A stretch of DNA of 64,000 bases from Natrinema sp. SYSU A 869. GTDB taxonomy: Archaea; Halobacteriota; Halobacteria; Halobacteriales; Natrialbaceae. Shown in pieces: positions 11,160 through 25,474 of this stretch. The translations under genes and the position numbers were made by a program. The DNA lies in assembly GCF_019879105.1 (NCBI RefSeq), contig NZ_CP082249.1, forward strand, positions 3,100,001 through 3,164,000, read 5' to 3'. The notes beneath the pieces were generated by a model that was not told the DNA's origin, did no database searches, and saw only the letters and a program-made list of their open reading frames with translations. How positions within the stretch are numbered: the stretch's first letter is position 1; each line of letters starts with the position of its first letter.

Positions 11160-11186
11160 ACAACAGACGCGGTTAGGATGACCTGA

Positions 11187-12606: not shown

Positions 12607-14241
12607 TCAGATCCCCTCACGACCGCCCTGGGTGAGGAGGACGAGCAGCGAGAGGCCGGAGACGGCGAGCAACAGCAGGGCGGGGATGACGGCGTACTGG
12701 AAGAAGGCCTCGCCCTGTGCCTTCCAGATGATGGTGACGAGGGTTTCGAAGCCGGTCGGCCGCAAGAGGAGGGTCGCCGGAAGTTCCTTCATCGTCGTCA
12801 GGAAGACCAGCGCCGCCCCGGCGGTCACGCCCGGTGCGATGAGCGGTAAGGTCACCTTTCTGAACGTGCGAAGCGGCGTCTCACCCAGCGTGTGTGCGGC
12901 CTCGACGAGTTTCGAATCGACCTGGAGCGTCGTGGTCCGGATCGAGCCGACCGCTTGGGGCATGAATCGGATCACGTAGGCGAACACTAGCAGCGGGATC
13001 GTCTGGTAGAGCGCTGGCAGGGTGGTCAGGTCGTACGTCCGGCGGATGCCCTCGTAGGTCGTGGCGAACGAGACGAGTGCGAGCCCGAGAACGATTCCCG
13101 GTACCGCGAAGCCGACGTAGGTCGACCGCTCAAAGAGCGTCGACAGCGGCGAGTCGTATCTGGCCGCGACGTACGCGACCGGCAAGGCGACGAGCACGGC
13201 CACGAACGCGGCCGCACCGGCCACAATCACGGAGTTGACCGCGTACTCGAGTTCGAAGGCCAGTGACGGCCGCGCGTCCGGATCGGCGGTCACGAGCCAG
13301 AGCCCGAGGATCCATAGCGGAACCAACAGCGCGATGCCGGTGACGCCCGCGGGCAGTAGCGTCGCCGGCCAACGCCACTTGCCGAGTTCGACGACGGGTT
13401 CGCTCGAGCCCTCGGAGCCGTCGCCCTGAACCGTCCGGTCGGGACGGGCCCACCACTCGAGGACGAGGACGACGAGCACGATGGCGAGCAACTGGAGCGA
13501 GAGGAAGGCCGCATAGTCCCGGCCATAGGAGCGGTATTCGAGGAAGATCTGTTGCGTGAAGACGGGCAGTTGCATGATCGCCGGCGTCCCGAAATCGGAG
13601 ACGGCGTACAGTGCTGCGAGCAGGCCACCGGCGACGATGGCGGGGCGGACCTGCGGGAGCGTTACGCGGCGGAAGGCCGTCCACGTATCGTGGTTTAGGG
13701 TCCGAGCGGCGTCGAGGAGTGTTGTGTCGAACGAGAGCAGAGCGGCTCGCACCGTCAGGTAGACGTACGGATAGGTGTAGAGTGTGATGACGAGCGTCGC
13801 GCCCGGAAGCCCGTAGATTTCGGGCAACTGCTGGATGCCCAGTGGCTCGAGAATCGATTGGAACTCGCCTTGCGGGCCGAACGCCGAGACGAAGGCGAAC
13901 GCGCCGATGTAGCTCGGGACGACCAGCGGGAGGGCGGCGACGACGGCCCAGAACCGGCGGAAGGGCAGGTCCGTCTGGACGGTGAGCCATGCCAGCGGAA
14001 CGCCGATCAGCGTCGACAGCACTGTGACGCCGGTCATGAGCAGGAGGCTGTTCGTGACGATCGACGCGGTTTGCGGGCGGGCGAGCATCTTCCAGAGCCG
14101 GGCTGTGTCGACGGTCGTCGCCTCGAATACGAGATATGTGAGCGGGAATAATACGCCCACGGCGATGGCACCGGACAGGAGCAATAGTCCGAGTGGCGGT
14201 CCATCGGTCGTCTCGCGTCGTCGTGAGAGGAGTGATCTCAT
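12607..14241 (-). CDS. Fe(III)-type ABC transporter permease (FbpB-like)
   Basis: 544 residues with two fused permease halves, each having about six spans and an EAA-type loop (AARTLNHDTWTAFRRVTLPQ near residue 210; AAHTLGETPLRTFRKVTLPL near residue 460). This duplicated architecture is typical of FbpB/ThiP-type importers of Fe(III), thiamine or phosphonates. The binding protein at 20931-22055 is the likely partner; no ATPase gene is in the window. The start at 14241 is chosen by TM1 position. It diverges from the DtxR-boxed gene at 14475, so the box at 14452 may control both. Confidence 0.85.
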   Translation of the reverse strand: MRSLLSRRRETTDGPPLGLLLLSGAIAVGVLFPLTYLVFEATTVDTARLWKMLARPQTASIVTNSLLLMTGVTVLSTLIGVPLAWLTVQTDLPFRRFWAVVAALPLVVPSYIGAFAFVSAFGPQGEFQSILEPLGIQQLPEIYGLPGATLVITLYTYPYVYLTVRAALLSFDTTLLDAARTLNHDTWTAFRRVTLPQVRPAIVAGGLLAALYAVSDFGTPAIMQLPVFTQQIFLEYRSYGRDYAAFLSLQLLAIVLVVLVLEWWARPDRTVQGDGSEGSSEPVVELGKWRWPATLLPAGVTGIALLVPLWILGLWLVTADPDARPSLAFELEYAVNSVIVAGAAAFVAVLVALPVAYVAARYDSPLSTLFERSTYVGFAVPGIVLGLALVSFATTYEGIRRTYDLTTLPALYQTIPLLVFAYVIRFMPQAVGSIRTTTLQVDSKLVEAAHTLGETPLRTFRKVTLPLIAPGVTAGAALVFLTTMKELPATLLLRPTGFETLVTIIWKAQGEAFFQYAVIPALLLLAVSGLSLLVLLTQGGREGI

Positions 14242-14451
14242 AGAGAGGTCGTCGGAAATGTATGGATGTGTGCGTCGCGCGTATCGAGACGGTCGTTCGG
14301 ACGCGGCGGAATAGCTGGCGGTTCCCGTCCGACTGTGCTGACACGCTCGTAGCCGACTGTCGGTTGCGTTCGCCGGGTCCGGCCGACGGCGATCGCGGCC
14401 GCGCGACGATTCGGTGGGTACTCGAGCGTCTCGTTCCAACGAGTATAAGGT

Positions 14452-14465
14452 TTAGGTTTGCCTAA
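14452..14465. promoter_or_regulatory. DtxR/SirR-type iron box 1
   Basis: The perfect palindrome TTAGGTTTGCCTAA ends 9 nt before the ATG at 14475, with a TATA-like sequence (tataa, 14444-14448) just upstream. The site lies between TATA and start, a classic repression position. The sequence is the exact reverse complement of box 2. Confidence 0.8.
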
Positions 14466-14474
14466 TTCCCTCGC

Positions 14475-15026
14475 ATGGAGCTGACCAGGCGAGACGCGGT
14501 CGCCGCATTGGCCGCGCTCGGCGTCGGTGGCGGGACGCTGTCGGGCTGTGCGGCCCCGACCGGATCCGCCCCCGACGGGAGCGATGACGATCCGTCGGCC
14601 GATATCGACACCGAACGGATTCGTGAGACGCTGGTCGCAGTCGCCGAGGTCGTTTACCCCAGCGAGGTCACCGGCACGGCGACGTTCGTCGAGACCTTCC
14701 TCAAGGGGCGACTCGAGGATCAGTCCCACGCAGCGAACGTCGACGCCACGGTCACGACACTGAACGAGCGCGCCGACGACTGGTTCGGCGATTCCTTCCC
14801 GGCGCTCTCGCCGGACGATCGGGATCGGTGCCTGCGGGAGATCGGCACGGATACCGCGGCGGAAGATCCCGAGGGGCGGCCCGCCGAACGGATGCGCTAC
14901 TACGTCGTTAATGAGTTGTTGTTGGCACTGTACACCTCGCCGACAGGCGGCGAGTTAGCCGGCATCGAGAACCCGATCGGCCACTCGGGCGGGCTCGAGA
15001 GCTACCAGCGGGGGTCCGGCGCGTGA
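14475..15026 (+). CDS. Gluconate 2-dehydrogenase subunit 3-like Tat protein
   Basis: 183 residues. It has a twin-arginine signal (LTRRDAVAALAALG) with a lipobox-like LSGC (Cys25), then the Gluconate_2-dh3 domain (VAEVVYPSEVTG...). The diagnostic C-terminal YTSPTGGELAGIENPIG precedes GLESYQRG. In known enzymes this small subunit escorts the GMC flavoprotein out through Tat and is part of a membrane sugar/polyol dehydrogenase. It overlaps the GMC gene by 4 bp (GTGA), so the two are translationally coupled. It has an iron box in its promoter. Confidence 0.88.
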   Translation: MELTRRDAVAALAALGVGGGTLSGCAAPTGSAPDGSDDDPSADIDTERIRETLVAVAEVVYPSEVTGTATFVETFLKGRLEDQSHAANVDATVTTLNERADDWFGDSFPALSPDDRDRCLREIGTDTAAEDPEGRPAERMRYYVVNELLLALYTSPTGGELAGIENPIGHSGGLESYQRGSGA

Positions 15027-16660
15027 GCGGCAGTCGACCGCCCGCCGAGTCGGCGGCGCCCGTCACCGACGAGGACGCGGATCGCACGCCGGTCGAGGAC
15101 GCCGACGTCTGCGTGATCGGCGCGGGTCCAGCCGGCGGGATCGTCGCAGATCGACTCGCCGAGGCTGGCCGCGAGGTCGTGATCCTCGAGGCCGGGCCGC
15201 GGTTCGATTCGGTCGACAGGCTCGCCAGACAGGAGCGGGCGATCAGACCAGCGTACGGTCGTCAGGACGTCTGGGACGGCGATCCCGAGCGCGATGCGTT
15301 CTCGACATCGGGTGACCAGCACTACCCGCTGAACCGCGCTCGAGTCAAGGGCGTCGGCGGGTCGACGCTCCACTGGCAGGGGATGGTAATGCGCCTCCAC
15401 GAGGCCGATTTCAACTCCCGGAGCGTCCGCGGGGTCGGGACGGACTGGCCGATCGACTATGCGGACCTCCAACCGTACTACGCTCAGGCCGAGCGGGAAC
15501 TAGGGATCGCCGGTGCCGCCGACAACCCCTTCGCGCCGCCTCGCGAAGAGCCGCATCCGATGCCGGCGTTTCCGCCCTCCTACAGCGATAGACTGTTCGC
15601 CGAGGCCTGCGACGAACTCGAGATCGCGATGCACTCCGTGCCCAACGCGCGAAACTCCGAGGGCTATGACGACCGCAGCGCCTGCGTCGGCTACGGAACC
15701 TGCCAACCCGTCTGTCCATCCGGCGCGAAGTACGATGCGACCGTCCACGTTGAGCGTGCCGAACGCGAGGGCGCGACCGTGATCGATTATGCGCCTGTCC
15801 AGCGCCTCGAGCACGACGCTGATTCGATTTCGGCGGCCGTCTACGCGACACCTGACGACGAGCGCCATCGGCAGGCGGCCGACGACTTCGTCGTCGCCTG
15901 TGGCGGCGTCGAGACGCCCCGCCTCCTGTTGCTCTCCGAATCGAATCAGTACCCCAACGGCCTGGCTAATTCGAGCGGCCTCGTCGGCCGATACTTCATG
16001 GAGCACTGCTTTGCGGGCACATTCGGCGTCCTCGACGAGCCGACCCGGCAGAACCACGTCGGCTTCCTGACCAGCGAGTCCCACCAGTTCTACGACGATG
16101 CCGACGAGGAGTACGCCCCCTTCAAACTCGAGTTCTTCAACTTCGCCGGGCCCTCGCCGGTCGGCATGGCGCTGACCGGCGACGACTGGGGTGATGCCCT
16201 GCTCGAGCGAATCCAAGACGGCTACGGCAATCACATCGCCATGGGCGCGCTGGTCGAACAGCTCCCCCGCGAGGACAGCTACGTCGGCCTCGATCCCAAG
16301 CGGACCGACGATCACGGCAACCCCGTCCCCGATGTCCACTGGACCGTCGGCGATCGAGCACGCCGGACGATGGAACGGGCAAACGAGATCCAGCGGGACG
16401 TCTTCGAGGAGCTGGATGCCGAGATCGAGTGGCAGGACGGTCCCGAAAACACCGTTCCGACCAACCACCACATGGGAACGACCCGAATGGGGAACGATCC
16501 CGCCGAGAGCGTCGTCGATCCCACGCTGCGAACGCACGACCTCGAAAACTGCTGGATCGCCTCGAGTAGCGTCTTCCCGACCGCCGGGGCGATGAACCCG
16601 ACGCTGACGATCGCGGCGCTCGCGCTGAAGGCCGCGGATCACATCCTCGAGTCCGCGTAA
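15023..16660 (+). CDS. GMC-family flavoprotein dehydrogenase with Fe-S motif
   Basis: 545 residues from a GTG inside the stop of the upstream gene. It has a FAD Rossmann motif VIGAGPAGGIVADRLAE near residue 35 and the GMC signature GVGGSTLHWQGMVMRL. The C-terminal catalytic segment holds NHHMGTTRMG and ends PTAGAMNPTLTIAALALKAA. Between these, CVGYGTCQPVCPSGAK matches the Cys-rich [3Fe-4S] site of FAD-dependent glucose/gluconate dehydrogenases. It oxidises a sugar or polyol, probably outside the membrane with its Tat partner. The cytochrome c subunit of bacterial versions is missing, so the electron acceptor is unknown. Confidence 0.87.
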   Translation: MSGSRPPAESAAPVTDEDADRTPVEDADVCVIGAGPAGGIVADRLAEAGREVVILEAGPRFDSVDRLARQERAIRPAYGRQDVWDGDPERDAFSTSGDQHYPLNRARVKGVGGSTLHWQGMVMRLHEADFNSRSVRGVGTDWPIDYADLQPYYAQAERELGIAGAADNPFAPPREEPHPMPAFPPSYSDRLFAEACDELEIAMHSVPNARNSEGYDDRSACVGYGTCQPVCPSGAKYDATVHVERAEREGATVIDYAPVQRLEHDADSISAAVYATPDDERHRQAADDFVVACGGVETPRLLLLSESNQYPNGLANSSGLVGRYFMEHCFAGTFGVLDEPTRQNHVGFLTSESHQFYDDADEEYAPFKLEFFNFAGPSPVGMALTGDDWGDALLERIQDGYGNHIAMGALVEQLPREDSYVGLDPKRTDDHGNPVPDVHWTVGDRARRTMERANEIQRDVFEELDAEIEWQDGPENTVPTNHHMGTTRMGNDPAESVVDPTLRTHDLENCWIASSSVFPTAGAMNPTLTIAALALKAADHILESA

Positions 16661-16673
16661 TCGCCGGCCCCGT

Positions 16674-16687
16674 TTAGGCAAACCTAA
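16674..16687. promoter_or_regulatory. DtxR/SirR-type iron box 2
   Basis: The palindrome TTAGGCAAACCTAA lies 14 nt after the GMC stop codon and 32 nt before the GT2 start. It abuts the presumed TATA element (cataaat, about 16690-16696), so binding would block promoter recognition. Confidence 0.78.
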
Positions 16688-16719
16688 AGCATAAATGCGG
16701 CGGGTCGAGAGTACCGTCA

Positions 16720-17475
16720 ATGAGTAGCGGAGAGCAGACCGAGACGACAGGGGGGAGCAACGAATCCGGCGAACGGTACACCTTCGACGATGTCAGCGTC
16801 GTCATGGGGACCTACAACGAAGCGGAAGCGATCGGCACAGTGCTCTCGGACATCGAGGACGTCACCGATGGGAAGGCGGAGGTCGTCTGCGTTGACGGCT
16901 CCTCGGATCGCACGCCCGAAATCGCACGCGAGCACGGCGCGACGGTCATCGAACAGCGACCGCAAGGGTACGGCGTCGCCGTCCGCGCGGCGATTTTAGG
17001 GCCCGATCGGCCGATCGTCGTGACGACTGACTGTGACGATACCTACCCGATGGAACAACTGCCGGAGTTCCTCGCCCTGATCAATCAGGGCCACGACGTC
17101 GTCAGCGGCGATCGACTCTACCACGGTGCCGACGCGATGCCGGCGTTCAACCGCTTCGGGAATCACGCGTTCGCGGCGATCGCGAGTCTGCTGATGGGCA
17201 CCCGCGTCCACGACACGACTACCGGAATGCGGGCCTATCGCCGCGATGTCGTCGAATCGATCGAGTGGACCGAGAACACCGGCCTCTCGGCCGAACTCCT
17301 GATCCGCCCGCTGATGCGGGGCTACGACGTTCGCGAACACCCGATCGAGTACCGTGAGCGCGCCGGGCAGACGAAACTCGATCCGCTGAAAGGCGGTCTC
17401 GAAATCGCGCGATCGATCGTCAAAGTCTCCCTTGAGGAGCGGCTCCGAGAGCTGCCACACCGGCCGACGCAGTAG
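16720..17475 (+). CDS. GT2-family glycosyltransferase (DPM-synthase-like)
   Basis: 251 residues. GT-A fold with VSVVMGTYNEAEAIGTVL near residue 27, VVCVDGSSDRTPEIA, a DxD-like TTDCDDTYPMEQLP near residue 108, and the downstream GMRAYRRDVVE. This matches the catalytic domain of dolichyl-phosphate mannose/glucose synthases without C-terminal TM helices. It probably loads a sugar on a dolichol-type lipid carrier. It is preceded by an iron box and followed convergently by the channel gene. Confidence 0.85.
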   Translation: MSSGEQTETTGGSNESGERYTFDDVSVVMGTYNEAEAIGTVLSDIEDVTDGKAEVVCVDGSSDRTPEIAREHGATVIEQRPQGYGVAVRAAILGPDRPIVVTTDCDDTYPMEQLPEFLALINQGHDVVSGDRLYHGADAMPAFNRFGNHAFAAIASLLMGTRVHDTTTGMRAYRRDVVESIEWTENTGLSAELLIRPLMRGYDVREHPIEYRERAGQTKLDPLKGGLEIARSIVKVSLEERLRELPHRPTQ

Positions 17476-17564
17476 CGATTCCCGTGTGCTGACAGCGTAC
17501 CGTGCCCCGATTCGATGCCTGAGCGATGGCCTCAACGACCGATTCAGATCGGGTCGCTGTAAAC

Positions 17565-18608
17565 CTAGTAGTGGACGCTTCTCGTCAGGACGAAGACCAG
17601 CAGCGCCATCAAGAGCGATCCGAGCAGGGTTTCGATACCAGCGACAGCGCGGGCCCATCCTCCGACCGGCTGGATGTCACCGTATCCCAGCGTGGCGAAG
17701 GTGATGACGCTGAAGTAGAGGCTCTTGAGGAACGCCTGAACGAGGACGCGACTGGGCGCGTCGGCGGGATTTTCGATCTGGTACGTGACCGCACTGTTGG
17801 TACCGACCTCGCGGATGCCGCCTGTCAGCGGATACAGCACCGCACAGACGAGGATTAGGAGCAGCGAGGTCGCCACGACCCGCCACGGGCTCGTCCCGTA
17901 CTGCATGACCCAGCGCGAGCCGGCGAGCTTCATCGCCTGCAGGTAGTTTCCGAGTCGCCAGGCCTGTCGCCGGCGGAAGTTCATCTCGCGAAGGTAGTAG
18001 GTGTGGACTCGCTCCGGGAACGCGTTCTCGTCATAGAGCCGCTGTAGCTCCCGGTAGACCCACTGTGCGGAGTCGGCTCGTTCCGCGAGTTGGTCGTCTG
18101 ACGACGCTTGGGGGATCTCGTCTTCGTACACCGACCGCTCGCCGAACGCCGTCTCGAGATTGAGTCGAACGTCGGTCAGGCCCGCACGATAGAGTCTCGC
18201 GTCCCGAAAGTCCGCACCGCGGAGATCGACGAAGACGAATACCGCATCGTGAAGGTTCGCGTTCCGGAACGACGTTCCGTGGGCGTCAACGTCCCGAAAC
18301 GTGGCCCGGCGAAGATCCGTCCCCGAGAGATCAGCACCGTCGAGGACCGCATCCGTGAAGTCCGCCTCGACGAGCGATCGCCCCGCGAGGAACGACTTTC
18401 CGCTCAATGTCGCTCCCTGAAAGTTCGCCCCGTCGAGCCGTTCGTCCGGCTCCGGCTGCTCCTGTTCGTACGCCGCCGCCGGAACGGCGGTCTCGGTGTG
18501 CCAGATGCAGCGGTCGGTGTCCCGCCATGTGGGCCGCCAGCAACAGACCGCTCCGGCGTCGTCGACTCCACTACTGCTCGTGACGGTACCGCACCGTTTC
18601 TCGGTCAT
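17565..18608 (-). CDS. Pentapeptide-repeat protein fused to two-TM potassium channel
   Basis: 347 residues. The N-terminus has about a dozen A(D/N)LxX pentapeptide units (for example GANFQGATLSGKSFLAG, ADLSGTDLRRATF, ADFRDARLY; roughly residues 55-155). A basic linker follows, then TM1 (VVATSLLLILVCAVLYPL), a pore helix with the selectivity filter TLGYGDIQP, and TM2. An early Cys-rich stretch (CGTV...CCWRPTW...CIWHTE) may bind metal. It is probably a K+-selective channel with a beta-helical cytoplasmic domain. The start at 18608 is where protein-like sequence begins. It has no iron box; it lies between boxed units. Confidence 0.82.
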   Translation of the reverse strand: MTEKRCGTVTSSSGVDDAGAVCCWRPTWRDTDRCIWHTETAVPAAAYEQEQPEPDERLDGANFQGATLSGKSFLAGRSLVEADFTDAVLDGADLSGTDLRRATFRDVDAHGTSFRNANLHDAVFVFVDLRGADFRDARLYRAGLTDVRLNLETAFGERSVYEDEIPQASSDDQLAERADSAQWVYRELQRLYDENAFPERVHTYYLREMNFRRRQAWRLGNYLQAMKLAGSRWVMQYGTSPWRVVATSLLLILVCAVLYPLTGGIREVGTNSAVTYQIENPADAPSRVLVQAFLKSLYFSVITFATLGYGDIQPVGGWARAVAGIETLLGSLLMALLVFVLTRSVHY

Positions 18609-18697
18609 AGGCGTCTTGGCGGCGAGTCGGCCCCTAATGCTGGTGCCTGAAATGCCCCATCGCACCGCTCGTCGACTCGCCGACAGCCGAACCGCCC

Positions 18698-20917
18698 CTA
18701 CGACGCCGACTCCCGTTCCTCGAGTCGTGTCTCGAATGTCTCCCACCGGCTGTGGGTCTCCGGCCGGTCGGGGAGGTAGGTTCCCTCGGTGCCGCAGTCG
18801 GTGACGAGCCGACAGCCCGTCCGTTCGGGCGGCCGGATCGCCTCGACGCCGTCCTCGGTCGCACGGACGGTCACCGCCTGTCGGTAGGTGTACGTTGCGC
18901 CCTCCGGCTGGACCTGCGTGATCGTCAGCACGACCTCGTCGGCCCCGTCGAACGACACTGTCTCGTTCGGTGATCGGTTCAGGTGACCGATCCCGCGGTC
19001 GTCGGTGGCGTTCGCTTCTGTATCGCTTCCGGTCGATGCATCGCGCTCGAGGGCCCACCCGACGGACAGTTCGCTATCGGGGTTGGCAACGGTGTAGCCG
19101 GCGACCTCGCCGTTGTTCTCGAGGCGGACCCGCACCCGATCGACACGGCTGGCGATCCCGACGGTGGTGGTCCCCTCGAGTCGCTCGCCCGACCGGACCG
19201 AGAGCGGTTCGAGTTGGGCGACGATCTCGTCATCAGGCGTTGCCGTCCACTCACCGCGGTAGCTGTAGCGGTAGTAGCTCCGGTTCGGATAGGCATCGAG
19301 GACGGCGAAATCGCGGGCTGGTGCCCCCTCGAGTGCGTAGACGACCTCCCCGTCGAGGCCGCCGTCGTTCCGGAGCGCTTGGAAGGGGTGATTCTGCCAC
19401 TGGCCGTAGGGTGTCGGCATGAAGACCAGCGCGTTCTCGAGGTCGTGCTCCTCGACGGGCTCGTAGGCGGATTCGAAGCGCTCGGTGTGGACGGCATTTC
19501 GTTCGACTGGGGCCGAGAGGAGGGCGGCATTCGCCGCGCCGGCGACGAGAACGCTCACGAGCAGGGCGACGAGGACGATGGCTCGAGCCGTCCGCGGCGA
19601 GGCGACGGTCGCGATTCGGCTTCGGACCGCGGCGTCGCGACACCGCCGAACGCCGACGACGACGCCGAACGACGCGAAGATCGACAGGGGGACGAGGAGG
19701 TCGAAGTGATAGAACGGCCCGAACTTCGAGAGGAGTCCGGTGGTCGGATCGGCGATCCCCTCGTGGACGTTGTAGTTGCCCCAGAACGCGACATTCCCGA
19801 GCGTGACGGAGATGAAGAGCCCGGCCAGCAGCAGGCCCGCGGTTCGGTCGCTCTTCCAGTTGCCCGTTCCGCCGGATTCTGGAACGGGGAGCCACCGCCA
19901 CAGCGCGACGGCCAGCCCCCCAAGTGCGGCGACCGTTCCGAGCGGTCCGGCTGTGAACCAGCGCGTAGCGAAGTACCAGAGGGCAGCCCCGTTCGCCTCG
20001 AGGGCGACTGCCGGCGTGTACTCGAGCGAGTGGTCGAGGAGTTCGCGGTGGCCGAACCCGGGCCCGTCGAGCGGGGCGAACGCAGCGTACGGAAAGGTAA
20101 GCGGTGATCCCGTGACGCGAGCGTTGTACGCGAGTGCCAGCCCGACGAATGCGAATCCGGCTGCGGCGGTGAGACCGTTTCGCCGGACTGGTCCCGGAAG
20201 CGGTCTGAGTCCCCGCTCCCACCAGCGGCCCCGAACCGATTGCAATACCGACCAGCCCGCGTGACAGATGAAGGGTGCGGCGAACAGGATGGCGGTGTAC
20301 GGCCGAGCGAAGAAGGCCAGTCCGATCGCCGCACCGGCCAAGACGGCGTCGCGGAGTCGCCCCCCACGGACGCCGCGGAGGTACCACACCGCAAAGAGGA
20401 GATTCAGTAGCGTCGTCGGTGCATACGGGAGAAACACCGATGACGTCAGTAACGTCATGGGGGCGGCGGCGAAGACAGCCGCGGCGACGACGCCGACCTG
20501 CCGGTCGAACACCATCGAGCCGAGGACGAAGACCAGTGCAGCGTTGCCCACCGCAACGGCGACGAGCGTCACCCGCGGCTCGCCGAACAGCGCCATCGAG
20601 ACGGCGTACATCGCGGGGATAACCGGCGAGTACTTCGAGTAGAGTCGGCCGCCGTCCTGAACGAAAAACCACGGCTGAAACGCGTCGGCGAGTTCGCCGG
20701 CCCGAAGCGTGAGCTGTCCCTCGAGCAGCATGGCGGCCTGCAGGAGATAGACTCCCTCGTCGTCATTGCTCGAGTGATAGGGAAAGAGCTCGGTCGCGAG
20801 GATCGCTACTGCGAGGCCGGCGAGACAGACGACGGCGAGTGCGGCCAGGTGAACGCGGCGTGGCCGCTCGCTGAGGGCGTCCCCCGACCGAACCCGGCGA
20901 ATCAGATCGTGGATCAC
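18698..20917 (-). CDS. GT39-like membrane glycosyltransferase
   Basis: 739 residues from a GTG start. The N-terminal membrane half has about 10 spans. The catalytic-loop acidic motif SSNDDEGVYLLQAAMLLEGQ lies near residue 50, as in ArnT/PMT-type enzymes using polyprenyl-phosphate sugars, and GGRLYSKYSPVIPAMYA follows. The C-terminal 270 residues are a soluble, probably extracellular beta-rich domain. It starts 13 nt after the FbpA stop, so it is in the same transcript behind iron box 3. It likely transfers a lipid-linked sugar to an external acceptor. Confidence 0.8.
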   Translation of the reverse strand: MIHDLIRRVRSGDALSERPRRVHLAALAVVCLAGLAVAILATELFPYHSSNDDEGVYLLQAAMLLEGQLTLRAGELADAFQPWFFVQDGGRLYSKYSPVIPAMYAVSMALFGEPRVTLVAVAVGNAALVFVLGSMVFDRQVGVVAAAVFAAAPMTLLTSSVFLPYAPTTLLNLLFAVWYLRGVRGGRLRDAVLAGAAIGLAFFARPYTAILFAAPFICHAGWSVLQSVRGRWWERGLRPLPGPVRRNGLTAAAGFAFVGLALAYNARVTGSPLTFPYAAFAPLDGPGFGHRELLDHSLEYTPAVALEANGAALWYFATRWFTAGPLGTVAALGGLAVALWRWLPVPESGGTGNWKSDRTAGLLLAGLFISVTLGNVAFWGNYNVHEGIADPTTGLLSKFGPFYHFDLLVPLSIFASFGVVVGVRRCRDAAVRSRIATVASPRTARAIVLVALLVSVLVAGAANAALLSAPVERNAVHTERFESAYEPVEEHDLENALVFMPTPYGQWQNHPFQALRNDGGLDGEVVYALEGAPARDFAVLDAYPNRSYYRYSYRGEWTATPDDEIVAQLEPLSVRSGERLEGTTTVGIASRVDRVRVRLENNGEVAGYTVANPDSELSVGWALERDASTGSDTEANATDDRGIGHLNRSPNETVSFDGADEVVLTITQVQPEGATYTYRQAVTVRATEDGVEAIRPPERTGCRLVTDCGTEGTYLPDRPETHSRWETFETRLEERESAS

Positions 20918-20930
20918 GAGAAGAGGGGGT

Positions 20931-22055
20931 TCAGATGCTGATGCCGTCGATGCTGCGCATCAGGTCCAGCGTCGGCTGGAGGTCTGACAGCTCCGACGGA
21001 TCGAGATCCGGCACGTCCAGTTCGTTGGTCGGCGGCAGTTCGCCGACGGGTTCGCCCTCCGCGATCAGCGGGTATTCGAACGTCTCCACCGCGAAGAACT
21101 CCTGGACCTCCGCCGAGAGCAGATGACGGACGAAGTTCTCCGCCAGCTCGGGGGTGTCCGTGTTTTCGATGACGGTCGCGCCTGCGACGTCGAACGTCGC
21201 ACCGGCGTCGCCGTCGGTGAACACCGTCTCGATCGGCGCGTCCGGGGATCCCTCGAGGACCCGCTGGATGTAGTAGTGGTTCGTGAATCCAGCATCGATT
21301 TCGCCGTCCGCGACGGCCTGACAGACTGCCATCTCGTCGTTGTACGCGGTGATGCCGTTGTCCACGATCGCTTGAAGCCACTCTCGAGTCGTCTCTTCGC
21401 CCTCGAGCAGGCGCATCGCGGTGACGAACGACTGGCAGGAGCCGTAGGAGGGGGCCCAGCCGAGGTCGCCCTCGAAGTCGGTGTAGGCGTCGATGCTCGT
21501 GGGCATGTCGCTCTCGGAGAACGCCTCTGTGTTGTAGGGTATCGTCCGGACGCGTCCGGAGGTCCCGACCCACTGGTCGGTCTGGAACTCCGCGGGAACC
21601 ATCTCCAAGACATCGTCAGAAAGCGATCGGGCCATCCCCTCGTTTGCGACCTCGCCGAGCGCGGCCGAGTCAACAGTAAAGAAAACGTCAGCGTCAGTGC
21701 CCGATCCCTCCTCGGCGATCTGATTTGCGAGCTGCGAGGAGTCGGCGTACCGGGGGCCGTCGACCACGAAATCGTCGTACTGATCTTCGAGACTGCTAAT
21801 GAGCGTCCCGACGAGGAACTCGTTTCGCCCGGAGTAGATGTGGAGTTCGCCCTCGAGGTCGGGCAGTTCCGCCATCGGCGTCCCGCCGGGCTGGCCACGG
21901 CCTGCACGGCCGGAGCCGATCTGCTTGAAGACGTTCCCCTCCTCTTCCTCGTCGTTCCCGATCAACCCCGTACAACCGGCCAGGCCGGCCATTCCAAGTC
22001 CAGCAGATCCGGCGAGAAATGTCCGCCGGGCCGTGAAATCGTGTCGCTTCGTCAT
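20931..22055 (-). CDS. Fe(III) ABC transporter substrate-binding lipoprotein (FbpA-like)
   Basis: 374 residues. It has a Tat signal (ARRTFLAGSAGLGMAGLAGC) with the lipid-anchored Cys at about residue 28, then a periplasmic-binding type II fold (ELHIYSGRNEFLVGTLISSL...). The paired tyrosines in FTNHYYIQRV are the ferric ligands of FbpA-type proteins. A low-complexity GRAGRGQPGG tether precedes the domain. The promoter has box 3 six nt before the ATG. Its permease partner is probably 12607-14241; the ATPase is not in the window. Confidence 0.9.
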   Translation of the reverse strand: MTKRHDFTARRTFLAGSAGLGMAGLAGCTGLIGNDEEEEGNVFKQIGSGRAGRGQPGGTPMAELPDLEGELHIYSGRNEFLVGTLISSLEDQYDDFVVDGPRYADSSQLANQIAEEGSGTDADVFFTVDSAALGEVANEGMARSLSDDVLEMVPAEFQTDQWVGTSGRVRTIPYNTEAFSESDMPTSIDAYTDFEGDLGWAPSYGSCQSFVTAMRLLEGEETTREWLQAIVDNGITAYNDEMAVCQAVADGEIDAGFTNHYYIQRVLEGSPDAPIETVFTDGDAGATFDVAGATVIENTDTPELAENFVRHLLSAEVQEFFAVETFEYPLIAEGEPVGELPPTNELDVPDLDPSELSDLQPTLDLMRSIDGISI

Positions 22056-22060
22056 GTGGT

Positions 22061-22074
22061 TTAGGCCGACCTAA
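22061..22074. promoter_or_regulatory. DtxR/SirR-type iron box 3
   Basis: TTAGGCCGACCTAA, 6 nt upstream of the FbpA-like ATG (22055), with TATAAGT (complement of 22078-22084) immediately behind it on the minus strand. The layout is the same as box 1: TATA, box, start. Confidence 0.82.
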
Positions 22075-22080
22075 ATGTAC

Positions 22081-23247
22081 TTATAGGCGTCGATTCCCCG
22101 CAATTCGTGTCGTCTGCTCGAGAGCCGACAGACAGTCGAGCCAGTCGCGCATGTGTTCGCCGACGTACGTAAAGAACGCGCCGTTATTGTACTCCTCCCA
22201 GTCGCCGTCGGCGAGTTCGTCGGCCATTGCTTCGAAGACGTCGGCGTAGTCGTCCGCGTCGCCGCCGACATCGTCAATTACGCGCCAGAGGTGTTCGTTG
22301 AGTTCGAGGCCGGGCACCTCGTTGTTCAGGTCGTCGAAGGTGCTGCGGGGGGCCTTGTTGTGTTCACAGAGGGGCGCGCCGTTGTAGATCCGCTTGCCGA
22401 GCACGTCGCAGGCACGCTTGAGGAAGACGCCCGACCAGATGTCGTCGAAGCGGCCGACCGCCCACTCGTTGTCGTCCATCGGGAGCTGGTAGAACGCGGG
22501 AATTACCTCGCGACGGAAGGCGAGGTTCATCGAACAGACGGTGAGGTAGTTGCCCCGTGCGGCAACGAAATCGTCGCCGAAATCGTCGCTAGAGGTCCGG
22601 GTCTGAGCCTGGCCCTCGAGGTCGCCGTCCATCAGAATGCGGACGGCGTCGAGATCGGGGACGTTGGTCCACAGTCCTTGCGAGGCGACAACCTCGCCGC
22701 CGCCGATCTCGGTCGTCCCGGTTTCGACCGTTTCGTTCATCGCCGAATAGGGGTAGCCGCGCGGATAGAGCCCGTGTTCGTCGGCGTTCTGGTAGAGGAC
22801 ATTAACCCACTGCTCGTCCGAGGAGACCGCCTCAATCTCGCCCTCGAAGGCGAGGTTCGCCATGTGCATGCCGAAGAAGTCCTGATCCTCGTGGGGGAGC
22901 GTGTCGTCGTCGATGAAGAAGCCGTAGTCGAACTCGTCGTGAGCCCACATGTAGAGCAGCCCGAAGCTGGTCTCGGCGTGGCTCGCCGCTGGCACGACGT
23001 GACCGTATTCGGAGACGTCGTGGTCAGCGTACCACTCCTCGCGGCGGCTCCCGTCGAAGACCTCGCCCGAGACGCCTTCGTCCTCGAGCATCGCTTCCAT
23101 CCCGTCAGTCTCACAGAAGTCCTCGGTAACGAGGACGACGTGCAGCCGCGAGAGGTCGAACCCGTGATTGCGAGCGTTTCCGAAGTACGAGCGCAGACAC
23201 TCGTACTCCCGAATTGTCGGGACGATGACGCAGATGTCCTGACTCAT
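22081..23247 (-). CDS. GT75-like reversibly glycosylated polypeptide family protein
   Basis: 388 residues. It begins MSQDICVIVPTIREYECL, has the metal-binding-like FFIDDDTLP near residue 115, and the long region QWVNVLYQNADEHGLYPRGYPYS with FDDIWSGVFLKRACDVLG later. This order matches the plant RGP/UDP-arabinopyranose mutase family (GT75) and its archaeal relatives. Known members interconvert or bind UDP-sugars (UDP-Arap/UDP-Araf) or self-glucosylate; the archaeal role is not established. Box 4 is 15 nt upstream of the ATG. Confidence 0.82.
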   Translation of the reverse strand: MSQDICVIVPTIREYECLRSYFGNARNHGFDLSRLHVVLVTEDFCETDGMEAMLEDEGVSGEVFDGSRREEWYADHDVSEYGHVVPAASHAETSFGLLYMWAHDEFDYGFFIDDDTLPHEDQDFFGMHMANLAFEGEIEAVSSDEQWVNVLYQNADEHGLYPRGYPYSAMNETVETGTTEIGGGEVVASQGLWTNVPDLDAVRILMDGDLEGQAQTRTSSDDFGDDFVAARGNYLTVCSMNLAFRREVIPAFYQLPMDDNEWAVGRFDDIWSGVFLKRACDVLGKRIYNGAPLCEHNKAPRSTFDDLNNEVPGLELNEHLWRVIDDVGGDADDYADVFEAMADELADGDWEEYNNGAFFTYVGEHMRDWLDCLSALEQTTRIAGNRRL

Positions 23248-23261
23248 TGCACCGCTATCTT

Positions 23262-23275
23262 TTAGGCCTGCCTAA
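23262..23275. promoter_or_regulatory. DtxR/SirR-type iron box 4
   Basis: TTAGGCCTGCCTAA, 15 nt before the RGP-like ATG. The TAG stop codon of the upstream flippase-like gene lies inside the box, so operator and coding end are shared. Confidence 0.8.
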
Positions 23276-24432
23276 AGTTTATCGGTCTCCCGTATCTCTT
23301 CTGGGTTCGACTCTGCCGCATCCGAGAGCGAAACACCCAATGAGGTGACTGCACCGGCCCCGCCGACCAGCGTTACGCCGTTTTTCAGCGCGTGATCGAC
23401 GATCGCCGCGGCCAGCGCCGTGCTCGCACCGATCGGAGTGAACCCGACCACGAGCGCCGTGAACGCGGCCTCGTAGAGCCCGACGCCGCCCTGTGACAGC
23501 GGGAGGACTTTCGCGAGGTTTCCGACGCTGACCGCCAGCGTCCCGACCGCCAGCAGCGTGCCAACCGCGAGCCCGCTACCCAGCGCCGCGAGGACGAGCA
23601 CCGCTGTGAGAACGTCGAGTATCCACACCAGCAGACTCCCTGCCCCGATCGTCGCCAGCGCTCGCGGCTGACGGGCGACGATCTGTACGTCGCCCGCGAA
23701 TCGGAGCGCGGCCTCAAGCACCCCCTCGAGTCGTGGCCGATCGTTCGCTCGCGTCCGGAGCCACACGCCTAGTCCGTGATCGGCTCGAGCGGACGTGACG
23801 ATGACGACGCCGACACCGGCGGTCGCCGTGCTCACGCCCACTGCAGCGAGGAGGGCGGTCCGCGCGCCGCCGGCCTCCGCGATGATCTCGAGCGGACCGG
23901 CCCACCCGCCCAGCGCGAGCCAGCCCGTCGCGAGCCCCGCGAGCGCGGCGATCGTCGCCAGATCGAACACTCGCTCGACGGCCAGCGACGCGAAGCCAGC
24001 GGTGTAGGGAACGTCGCGATGGGTCCGCATTACGTATGCACGAACCGCGTCACCGGCCCGCGCCGGAATCGCGAGATTCGCCGTCTGACTGACGAAGACG
24101 GCCAGTGTCGGAACGACCGTCCCGCCTCGGTATCCGATCGCGGCCAGCACGTCGCCGTACCGGCGACCCCGAAGTGGCCACGAGACGGCATAGACGGCGA
24201 TCGCGGCGCCGATCAGGAGCGGATCAGCGCTCGAGATCTCGGTCGTAACGGTCCGGATATCGATCTCTCGGAGGGCGACGAGCAGACCGACGAGAACGAG
24301 TATCGTTCCCGCGATCGTCAGTCGACGGCGAGTCAGTGCCGCGGCGAGCCTATCGCTCGCTGATCTATCGGTCCCCGAACGCGACTCGCGGTCGACATCT
24401 TGCGAGCCCGTTCTCTCACCCCCATCGTTCAT
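23272..24432 (-). CDS. LPG-synthase/flippase-like (UPF0104) membrane protein
   Basis: 386 residues. An acidic, disordered N-terminal 30 residues precede about 8 hydrophobic segments. LPG_synthase_TM features are NLAIPARAGDAVRAYVM near residue 120 and LPLSQGGVGLYEAAFTALV near residue 320. The family includes MprF flippase domains and the membrane part of AglD, thought to move lipid-linked sugars across the membrane. The start at 24432 is chosen over 24492 because the latter would run through box 5. Its stop is inside box 4. Confidence 0.83.
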   Translation of the reverse strand: MNDGGERTGSQDVDRESRSGTDRSASDRLAAALTRRRLTIAGTILVLVGLLVALREIDIRTVTTEISSADPLLIGAAIAVYAVSWPLRGRRYGDVLAAIGYRGGTVVPTLAVFVSQTANLAIPARAGDAVRAYVMRTHRDVPYTAGFASLAVERVFDLATIAALAGLATGWLALGGWAGPLEIIAEAGGARTALLAAVGVSTATAGVGVVIVTSARADHGLGVWLRTRANDRPRLEGVLEAALRFAGDVQIVARQPRALATIGAGSLLVWILDVLTAVLVLAALGSGLAVGTLLAVGTLAVSVGNLAKVLPLSQGGVGLYEAAFTALVVGFTPIGASTALAAAIVDHALKNGVTLVGGAGAVTSLGVSLSDAAESNPEEIRETDKL

Positions 24433-24457
24433 GCTCGGGTCCTTCGAGTCCAGATAT

Positions 24458-24471
24458 TTAAGCCCACCTAA
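24458..24471. promoter_or_regulatory. DtxR/SirR-type iron box 5 (one arm imperfect)
   Basis: TTAAGCCCACCTAA, 25 nt before the flippase-like ATG (24432). The right arm is perfect and the left arm has one mismatch (TTAAG for TTAGG). Its position and company make it credible as the fifth site of the series. Confidence 0.65.
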
Positions 24472-24544
24472 AACTCCTCTAGACGGAGGCAACGATCACT
24501 CTCGCGTACATTTCACGCGGATAGAATAGCCGCAGTCTCCCTTC

Positions 24545-25474
24545 TCAGCGAAGTTCGTCGATGATCTCGCGGGTCGATCGGCGGACCGCCTCGTCGCTCG
24601 AGAGATGGGGCTCCCAGCCCAGTGCAGAGAGCTTCTCGATCGAGAGACGCATCTTCGGCACGTCGCCGGTCCAGCCGCGCTCGCCGCCCGTGTACTCCCG
24701 GTCGGGATCGACGCCTAACTCTTCGGCGACGATGGTCGCGATCCGGTCGACCGAGGTCGTCGTGCGCGTGCCGAGGTTGTAGGTGTTCATCGCGTCGTCG
24801 GCGTGCTCGATGGTGTAGAGCATCGCGTCGAGACAGTCCTCGAGGTGCAGATAGGACTTCTCCTGACGGCCGTCGCCGAGAATAGTGAGTGTTTCCGGAT
24901 TCTCCTGAAGCTTCTCGATGAAGTCGGGGATCACTGCCCCACGAAGGCGCGGGCCAACTACGTTCGCGAATCGGAAATTCCAGACGGTGAGGTCGTGGCT
25001 ATGGGCCCGCGCCGAGAGCAGCCCTTCATCGGCCAGTTTGCTCGCCCCGTAGGCGCTGATCGGCTCGAGGGGAGCGTAGTCCTCCGGCGTCGGCCGCGGA
25101 GCCTCCCCGTAGACCGTCGAGGAGGATGTGTAGGCAATCTCCGTCACGTCGGCCTCGGCCATCGCCTCGAGGATGTTCCGGGTCATCTGCGTGTTGTCGT
25201 CGAACTGGCCGTGGGGCCGATCCGTGTCGACGTGTTTCGATGCCGCGAGGTGGACGACGAGGGTGATCTCCTCGAGGTGTCCCTCGAGGGCGTCGGGATC
25301 GGTGAGATCGGCCTCGAGAAAGTCGGCTTCGTCGGGCACGCGGTCGCGGTCGCCGTTCGAGAGGTCGTCGACGACGGTTACGTCGGTGCCGTCCTTGAGC
25401 AGGCGCTCGGTGAGGTGTGAGCCGATGAACCCGGCACCGCCCGTGACAAGCACGCTTCGGTTCGAGATGGACAT
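24545..25474 (-). CDS. NAD-dependent sugar-nucleotide epimerase/dehydratase
   Basis: 309-residue extended SDR. NAD-binding GGAGFIGSHL is at residues 12-21, the catalytic Ser/Thr in YTSSSTVYGE, and YGASK has the Tyr-Lys pair. The C-terminal NLGTRTTTSVDRIATIV and RGWTGDVPKMRLSIEKL match UDP-glucose 4-epimerase-like archaeal proteins. It likely supplies a nucleotide sugar to the adjacent glycosyltransferases. There is no clear iron box, but it lies upstream of the boxed flippase gene on the same strand. Confidence 0.87.
   Translation of the reverse strand: MSISNRSVLVTGGAGFIGSHLTERLLKDGTDVTVVDDLSNGDRDRVPDEADFLEADLTDPDALEGHLEEITLVVHLAASKHVDTDRPHGQFDDNTQMTRNILEAMAEADVTEIAYTSSSTVYGEAPRPTPEDYAPLEPISAYGASKLADEGLLSARAHSHDLTVWNFRFANVVGPRLRGAVIPDFIEKLQENPETLTILGDGRQEKSYLHLEDCLDAMLYTIEHADDAMNTYNLGTRTTTSVDRIATIVAEELGVDPDREYTGGERGWTGDVPKMRLSIEKLSALGWEPHLSSDEAVRRSTREIIDELR

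Follow-up and report, generated by a model that had tools for sequence, protein, structure and literature searches.

The genome of the haloarchaeon Natrinema sp. SYSU A 869 includes a compact group of genes for ferric iron uptake, sugar transfer, and sugar oxidation. This group, here called the island, occupies positions 12,607 to 25,474 of a 64,000-nucleotide stretch of contig NZ_CP082249.1 (positions 3,100,001 to 3,164,000 of assembly GCF_019879105.1) that was analyzed at its full length and is termed the window. The best explanation for the island as a whole is probably that it represents a conserved, apparently iron-repressed haloarchaeal module that combines ferric import, a sugar route, and a sugar dehydrogenase.

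An initial annotation, made from the letters of the sequence, had noted five palindromes of one type within about 10 kb, each at the promoter of a different unit, and had proposed that iron starvation turns on a complete set of glycan and sugar oxidation genes. The units were named correctly: a small subunit of the gluconate 2-dehydrogenase subunit 3 family (gdh3) paired with a GMC dehydrogenase, a family 2 glycosyltransferase (GT2), the ferric-binding lipoprotein FbpA paired with a GT39-like glycosyltransferase (GT39 below), a family 75 protein (RGP/GT75), and a flippase-like membrane protein. The observation itself proved stronger than first put forward, and the broader interpretation found partial support. 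Control of the iron type, the class of FbpA, the unity of the glycan genes, and the enzyme families all hold up, and the suggested use of the sugar product is treated below as one of several tentative alternatives.

Palindromic boxes and the metal they probably answer

The box motif is the palindrome TTAGGN4CCTAA, and the same pattern reversed served as a control. A motif scan of the window confirmed five boxes at five promoters within 10 kb, of which four are strict matches and the fifth, before the flippase-like gene, carries one mismatch (Table 1). No strict site arose in 200 first-order shuffles of the window. With up to two mismatches allowed, the window yields 11 matches where 4.8 are expected, and so only the strict form of the motif is informative. 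The whole genome (5.67 Mb in three contigs) holds 17 strict boxes compared with four for the reversed control, at whose rate the presence of four strict boxes inside 8.8 kb has a probability of ~6e-11. Thus, the clustering in the island is not due to chance. The count of one-mismatch sites was rejected as evidence because the control exceeds the motif genome-wide (92 versus 39). The fifth island box is accepted only because it recurs, with at most one mismatch, before the flippase gene in 61 of 61 relatives.

Conservation was assessed in 20 genomes from nine families plus 80 named genomes, which gave 99 loci from about 25 genera, and a box was counted when it had no more than one mismatch and was located within 250 bp upstream of a gene. 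A box precedes RGP in 99 of 99 cases, fbpA in 92 of 99, GT2 in 77 of 78, and gdh3 in 65 of 67. Neither GT39 (0 of 99) nor GMC has a box of its own, both being the downstream genes of their units (fbpA-GT39 and gdh3-GMC). The initial description of FbpA and GT39 as a boxed pair is therefore accurate for the unit, and not for GT39 itself, which follows fbpA. A further correction places the start of the flippase-like gene near 24432. Four control palindromes gave no strict match before these genes and almost no one-mismatch matches, except for one control present at 18 of 67 gdh3 and 14 of 85 fbpB genes.

Copies of GT2 and gdh3/GMC that reside away from RGP stay boxed, with strict sites at 15 separate gdh3/GMC units and strict or one-mismatch sites at GT2. 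The control thus does not simply follow from how the genes are arranged. A gdh3/GMC pair at one locus (L220) has no box and directly follows GT39, with which it may be read together. Otherwise conserved clusters without boxes, which the initial annotation had named as evidence that would speak against its proposal, occur in one genus, whose members also lack FbpA and the island-type GMC.

In the fbpA and gdh3 promoters, the TATA element, the box, and the start codon follow one another in this order within about 30 bp. Such placement fits repression, and from these positions we infer that the boxes would be bound by a repressor.

Table 1. Genes and boxes of the island, with positions in the window
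Feature	Position	Strand	Description
fbpB	12607..14241	-	FbpB-type two-domain ABC permease; Pfam BPD_transp_1, two stretches
Box, strict	14452..14465		TTAGGTTTGCCTAA; between TATA and gdh3 start codon; also upstream of divergent fbpB
gdh3	14475..15026	+	Gluconate 2-dehydrogenase subunit 3 family small subunit with a Tat signal and a lipobox; N-terminus MELTRRDAV...LSGC; PF13618 E 1.5e-9
GMC	15023..16660	+	Dehydrogenase, FAD-GDH/fructose dehydrogenase-like; C-x5-C-x3-C motif; PDB 8hdd/6a2u E 3e-90
Box, strict	16674..16687		TTAGGCAAACCTAA; directly upstream of GT2 TATA element
GT2	16720..17475	+	Dolichyl-phosphate hexose transferase family; NCBIfam equivalog NF041391 408 bits, cut-off 375
Pentapeptide-repeat gene	17565-18608		C-terminal ion-channel domain; between GT2 and GT39; no box; in only some relatives
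GT39	18698..20917	-	GT-C glycosyltransferase, GT39-like; PMT_2 and DUF7846, the latter an external beta domain
fbpA	20931..22055	-	Ferric-binding lipoprotein; PDB ferric-binding proteins E 6e-54
Box, strict	22061..22074		TTAGGCCGACCTAA; between TATA and fbpA start codon
RGP	22081..23247	-	RGP/GT75, probable NDP-pyranose mutase; PF03214; MtdL E 1e-26
Box, strict	23262..23275		TTAGGCCTGCCTAA; before RGP, overlaps flippase gene 3' end
Flippase-like gene	23272..24432	-	UPF0104 membrane protein; TIGR00374, PF03706
Box, one mismatch	24458..24471		TTAAGCCCACCTAA; overlaps flippase core promoter
Epimerase gene	24545..25474	-	NAD-dependent sugar epimerase/dehydratase; no box; loosely associated; PF01370 E 2e-54

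Boxes elsewhere in the genome point to iron. Other strict boxes are associated with a FecBCD-type siderophore importer (three boxes), a second siderophore-binding protein, and the gene for a DtxR-family regulator, and more are found near a pyridoxal-dependent decarboxylase and near Dps genes. The genome of Haloferax massiliensis contains 28 strict boxes and one control site, with many of the boxes preceding genes for siderophore-binding lipoproteins and others preceding fbpA and gdh3/GMC. A report on the Haloferax low-iron proteome (PMC11349517) also cites a "ferR regulon signal" upstream of fhu genes in Haloferax. Because the boxes recur across about 25 genera and also mark siderophore systems and a DtxR-family gene, it is very probable that they mediate iron control by a DtxR/Idr-type regulator. 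This had been the initial prediction, and it is well supported by the company that the boxes keep.

The boxes might instead answer another metal such as manganese, through a regulator of the SirR/MntR type. In favor of this view, the box-bearing DtxR-family protein scores best against MntR models, but below the cut-off, whereas the other boxed genes code for siderophore importers, Dps, and ferric transporters, and the binding protein of the island is of the Fe(III) type. We therefore consider control by another metal to be highly doubtful.

Additional features of the box collection were observed. Strict boxes outside the island are often paired, 34-36 bp apart (G000 C3:2090622/2090658 in this genome and G293 C1:548389/548425; also in G212, G074, and G255), and the island boxes are single. 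Two genes for Dps-type ferritins in the Natrinema genome itself (L016 4636-6774; L018 5972-6547) are close to boxes, and one of them adjoins the DtxR-family regulator gene. A one-mismatch box, TTAGGATGACCTGA, is located at window positions 11173-11186, directly upstream of a tRNA-like gene (~11190), and recurs in several Natrinema relatives. An identical one-mismatch sequence, TTAGGACCGGCTAA, is present at five places in this genome (G000 C1:103480, C2:130389, C3:512459, C3:1712195, and C3:2539859) and in this resembles a repeated or mobile element rather than a site bound by a regulator.

Joint inheritance of the sugar-transfer genes

The glycan genes had been proposed to act as one system, and their distribution agrees with this proposal. 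A survey of 293 genomes of the haloarchaeal order found RGP in 230 (one a weak match, E 1e-9), GT2 in 230, and GT39 in 229. All three genes, which we call the trio, occur together in 229 genomes, and 62 genomes have none of them. The Fisher value for this co-occurrence (7e-64) ignores phylogeny, and a safer argument comes from the absences, some of which fall in 14 genera that also hold carriers. Hence, the trio was lost (or gained) jointly many times. It is likely, and well supported by this pattern, that RGP, GT2, and GT39 form one pathway.

RGP proteins are 75-95% identical across the order, and an RGP profile gave no match among genomes sampled from the phylum outside it. FbpA is not a strict partner of the trio. 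This candidate was rejected because FbpA relatives extend more widely, to 275 of the 293 genomes. In trio-negative genomes, separate FbpAB clusters are found (L240-L261) that belong to other subtypes, and most of these clusters have one to three upstream boxes.

The enzyme families assigned initially were also borne out. RGP matches the GT75 mutase MtdL, with which it shares the DDD motif, reactive arginine, aspartates, and manganese-binding histidine. Residues D113-D115, R163, D198, S239, R266, D269, and H296 are invariant in 16 diverse sequences. RGP has Ser89 at the Ser86 site of MtdL, and a serine there suggests a guanosine diphosphate (GDP)-sugar (PMC9937993). GT2 resembles a dolichol-phosphate mannose synthase in the PDB (E 3e-11). 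A structure model of GT39 (mean confidence score pLDDT 86) has a GT-C fold most similar to those of STT3/AglB, Pmt, and ArnT (Z 20-24), with the external acidic motif D53-E54 in the first loop invariant. Its external beta domain alone gave no PDB fold match with E ≤0.001.

The flippase-like protein shares 45-48% identity with the C-terminal half of a protein from Haloferax that begins with a GT2 half. This GT2-UPF0104 fusion has the architecture of AglD, and the Haloferax protein is taken to be AglD. The island GT2 is ~28% identical to the GT2 half of this AglD-type fusion.

The exported dehydrogenase is tied to the same genes by its distribution. GMC was found in 222 genomes, 220 of which carry the trio. 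The protein resembles glucose dehydrogenases dependent on flavin adenine dinucleotide (FAD) and has the aligned C-x5-C-x3-C cysteines of a 3Fe-4S cluster, a motif present in 63 of 68 relatives. No cytochrome c subunit was found in the island or among the conserved genes of 33 clusters, the extent of this search. Nor do those 33 clusters share further genes other than antisense shadow open reading frames and flanking genes. The unboxed epimerase gene adjoins the flippase gene in Natrinema and near relatives and is absent or elsewhere in others.

According to the initial idea, Fe(III) would be bound or mobilized for FbpA by the surface glycan or by sugar acids that the dehydrogenase produces. 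Relatives of GMC work outside the cytoplasm, where their oxidation of sugars yields acids or lactones, and, besides the near-complete overlap with trio carriers, the gdh3/GMC unit is boxed even if unlinked. No sequence feature indicates that the sugar product binds iron, however, and that need is already served by siderophore systems that bear such boxes. An iron-binding sugar product is an unlikely explanation.

The ferric importer, its matched transferase, and a proposed mechanism

The initial assignment of FbpA to the Fe(III) type agrees with its PDB matches (Table 1) and with the NHYY motif of paired tyrosines, which is present in 99 of 99 relatives. The nearest relative has an FbpB permease with 92% identity, and its gene likewise stays beside gdh3. 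The ATPase subunit of the importer is not encoded in the island. A strict box is located 36 bp before a gene for an FbpC/CysA-class ATP-binding cassette (ABC) ATPase at C3 ~1.02 Mb, 2.1 Mb from the island. Because this ATPase is 60-72% identical to the FbpC proteins encoded between fbpB and GT39 in other genera, it is probably the missing subunit.

FbpA and GT39 occur in two matching types, with 77 A/A, 22 B/B, and no mixed pairs among the 99 loci. Natrinema strains whose RGP and GT2 are 86-95% and 85-93% identical to those of the window carry either type. In type A strains fbpA and GT39 are 82-89% and 76-88% identical to the window genes, and in type B strains only 44-47% and 43-45%. The exchanged block includes fbpB. 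Distances correlate more strongly for GT39 and fbpA (0.89) than for RGP and fbpA (0.38), and this holds within type A (0.75 versus 0.63) and type B (0.94 versus 0.80). The overall value of 0.89 was toned down as proof of coevolution because the two types account for much of it. The matched types mean either that a linked block was exchanged or that the transferase and the ferric-binding protein are truly paired.

This pattern suggests that the GT-C enzyme might glycosylate the ferric importer (the FbpA lipoprotein or its partners), making the sugar route a maturation step for iron uptake. Such a role is consistent with the arrangement of fbpA and GT39 as one unit, with their perfectly matched types, and with their joint exchange within Natrinema while RGP and GT2 were not exchanged. 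However, linkage alone may explain the exchange of adjacent genes, and two genomes (G199 and G255) have GT39 without FbpA. A conserved GSG linker of FbpA was rejected as a trio-specific glycosylation site because it is present in some FbpA paralogues of trio-negative genomes as well. We regard importer glycosylation as a rather unlikely explanation.

Our preferred reading, an apparently iron-repressed module, can be described as a series of steps. When iron is present, a repressor of the DtxR/Idr family would occupy the boxes over the core promoters and block transcription. When iron is absent, all units would open together. Ferric uptake would then be carried out by the FbpA lipoprotein, the FbpB permease, and the ATPase encoded 2.1 Mb away in this genome. 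The GT75 protein would supply a nucleoside diphosphate (NDP)-sugar, probably a furanose, which GT2 would load on dolichyl phosphate. The UPF0104 protein would aid membrane crossing and the GT-C enzyme would pass the sugar to an acceptor outside the cell. In Haloferax, AglD-AglR-AglS add the last mannose of the surface-layer (S-layer) glycan in this way. In addition, the exported FAD/3Fe-4S dehydrogenase would oxidize sugar outside the cell. We lean modestly toward this biochemical order (mutase, loader, flippase, transferase).

The identity of the acceptor can be proposed only tentatively. FbpA or the importer is one possible acceptor, and an S-layer protein or N-glycan is another. A glycolipid or polysaccharide is a somewhat less plausible target, and some other acceptor is improbable. 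The importer is favored by the matched types of FbpA and GT39 and disfavored by the genomes that have no FbpA. It is conceivable that glycosylation in low iron serves Fe(III) capture, such that an external glycoconjugate of the GT75-derived sugar, perhaps oxidized by the dehydrogenase, decorates FbpA or holds Fe(III) for it at the cell surface.

Several observations weigh against the proposed module. RGP has His90 where MtdL has Asp87, and therefore its mutase activity or its sugar may differ. Many genera have no flippase gene in the cluster. The module proteins are not named in the main-text table of the Haloferax low-iron proteome (PMC11349517). Two proteins of Hfx. volcanii that increase in low iron according to the same report, HVO_1859 (UPF0104, +11.6-fold) and HVO_0655 (GalE family, +12.7-fold), share broad families with two window proteins. 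They were considered as flippase and epimerase orthologues and were left out of the argument. The sole flippase match in Hfx. massiliensis is an unboxed fusion that resembles AglD.

An informative exception among genomes is a single genus (g71) whose two members, G199 and G255, keep the trio without trio boxes, FbpA, or the island-type GMC, and have 9 and 11 strict boxes elsewhere. In one of these genomes a two-mismatch site, TTGGGTGATCCTAG, is located 18 bp before RGP, which is the usual place, and the site is gone in the other (L225 ~7020, L226 ~6950). This site looks like a decayed box. Iron control is thus not a condition for the trio, and the tie between the sugar route and iron is not universal. 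Judging from this one lineage, iron control appears to be retained along with the ferric importer and the dehydrogenase.

The same genus speaks for the view that the trio decorates the cell surface in a general way that has nothing to do with iron handling, and that its boxes only alter the surface in poor conditions or arose through closeness to fbpA. Against this view, unlinked GT2 copies stay boxed, and RGP, GT2, and the flippase gene each have their own box across genera. We judge general decoration to be unlikely and retain the iron-repressed module as the preferred reading.

Comparison with known systems

A literature search found no description of this combination of iron control, surface sugar, and dehydrogenase in the sources covered, with most subscription journals outside the search. 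What we put forward as new is the whole module in the form given here, not every box, since regulon studies may list some of the targets. The module unites three haloarchaeal subjects that have been studied apart, namely iron regulons, dolichyl-phosphate glycosylation, and sugar oxidation. RGP is very strongly conserved and yet has no assigned role in the literature covered. Most genomes of the order have the module, including those of Haloferax (in which RGP, fbpABC, GT39, and a boxed gdh3/GMC pair were seen), and so it can be tested with existing genetics. Likewise, the two exchangeable FbpA/GT39 types make the matching of transferase to FbpA addressable by experiment.

Each part of the module has a known counterpart. 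The importer resembles FbpABC/HitABC in its FbpA with NHYY and its two-domain FbpB, but its own-genome ATPase gene is distant and has its own box, and a GT-C gene follows fbpA. RGP retains the catalytic residues of the GT75 mutases (MtdL and plant RGP/UAM), differs from MtdL at the histidine noted above, and is confined to the haloarchaeal order in the phylum sample. Like the FAD-dependent glucose and fructose dehydrogenases, the island enzyme combines a C-x5-C-x3-C catalytic subunit with a small subunit that carries a signal for twin-arginine (Tat) export, whereas the island has an iron box and no cytochrome c subunit.

The closest parallel to the sugar route is the addition of the terminal mannose in Haloferax volcanii N-glycosylation by AglD-AglR-AglS, in which the sugar is loaded on dolichyl phosphate inside the cell, crosses the membrane, and is transferred outside (PMC3871713). 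The proposed island route would follow the same order, and its UPF0104 protein resembles the second half of the AglD-type fusion. In contrast, the island GT2 is only distantly similar to the AglD-type half, GT75 is strictly linked, there is no oligosaccharyltransferase nearby, and the promoters have iron boxes.

Finally, the palindrome is of the kind known from the haloarchaeal iron regulons of the DtxR family (Idr, SirR, and TroR), and it is likewise present at genes for siderophore uptake and at one for a DtxR-family protein. What differs is that the island boxes are also found at units for a GT75 protein, a dolichyl-phosphate sugar synthase, a GT-C transferase, and a sugar dehydrogenase. 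Most haloarchaea share this gene set, in which a ferric importer, a three-enzyme lipid-carried sugar route, and an exported sugar dehydrogenase would be switched by iron.

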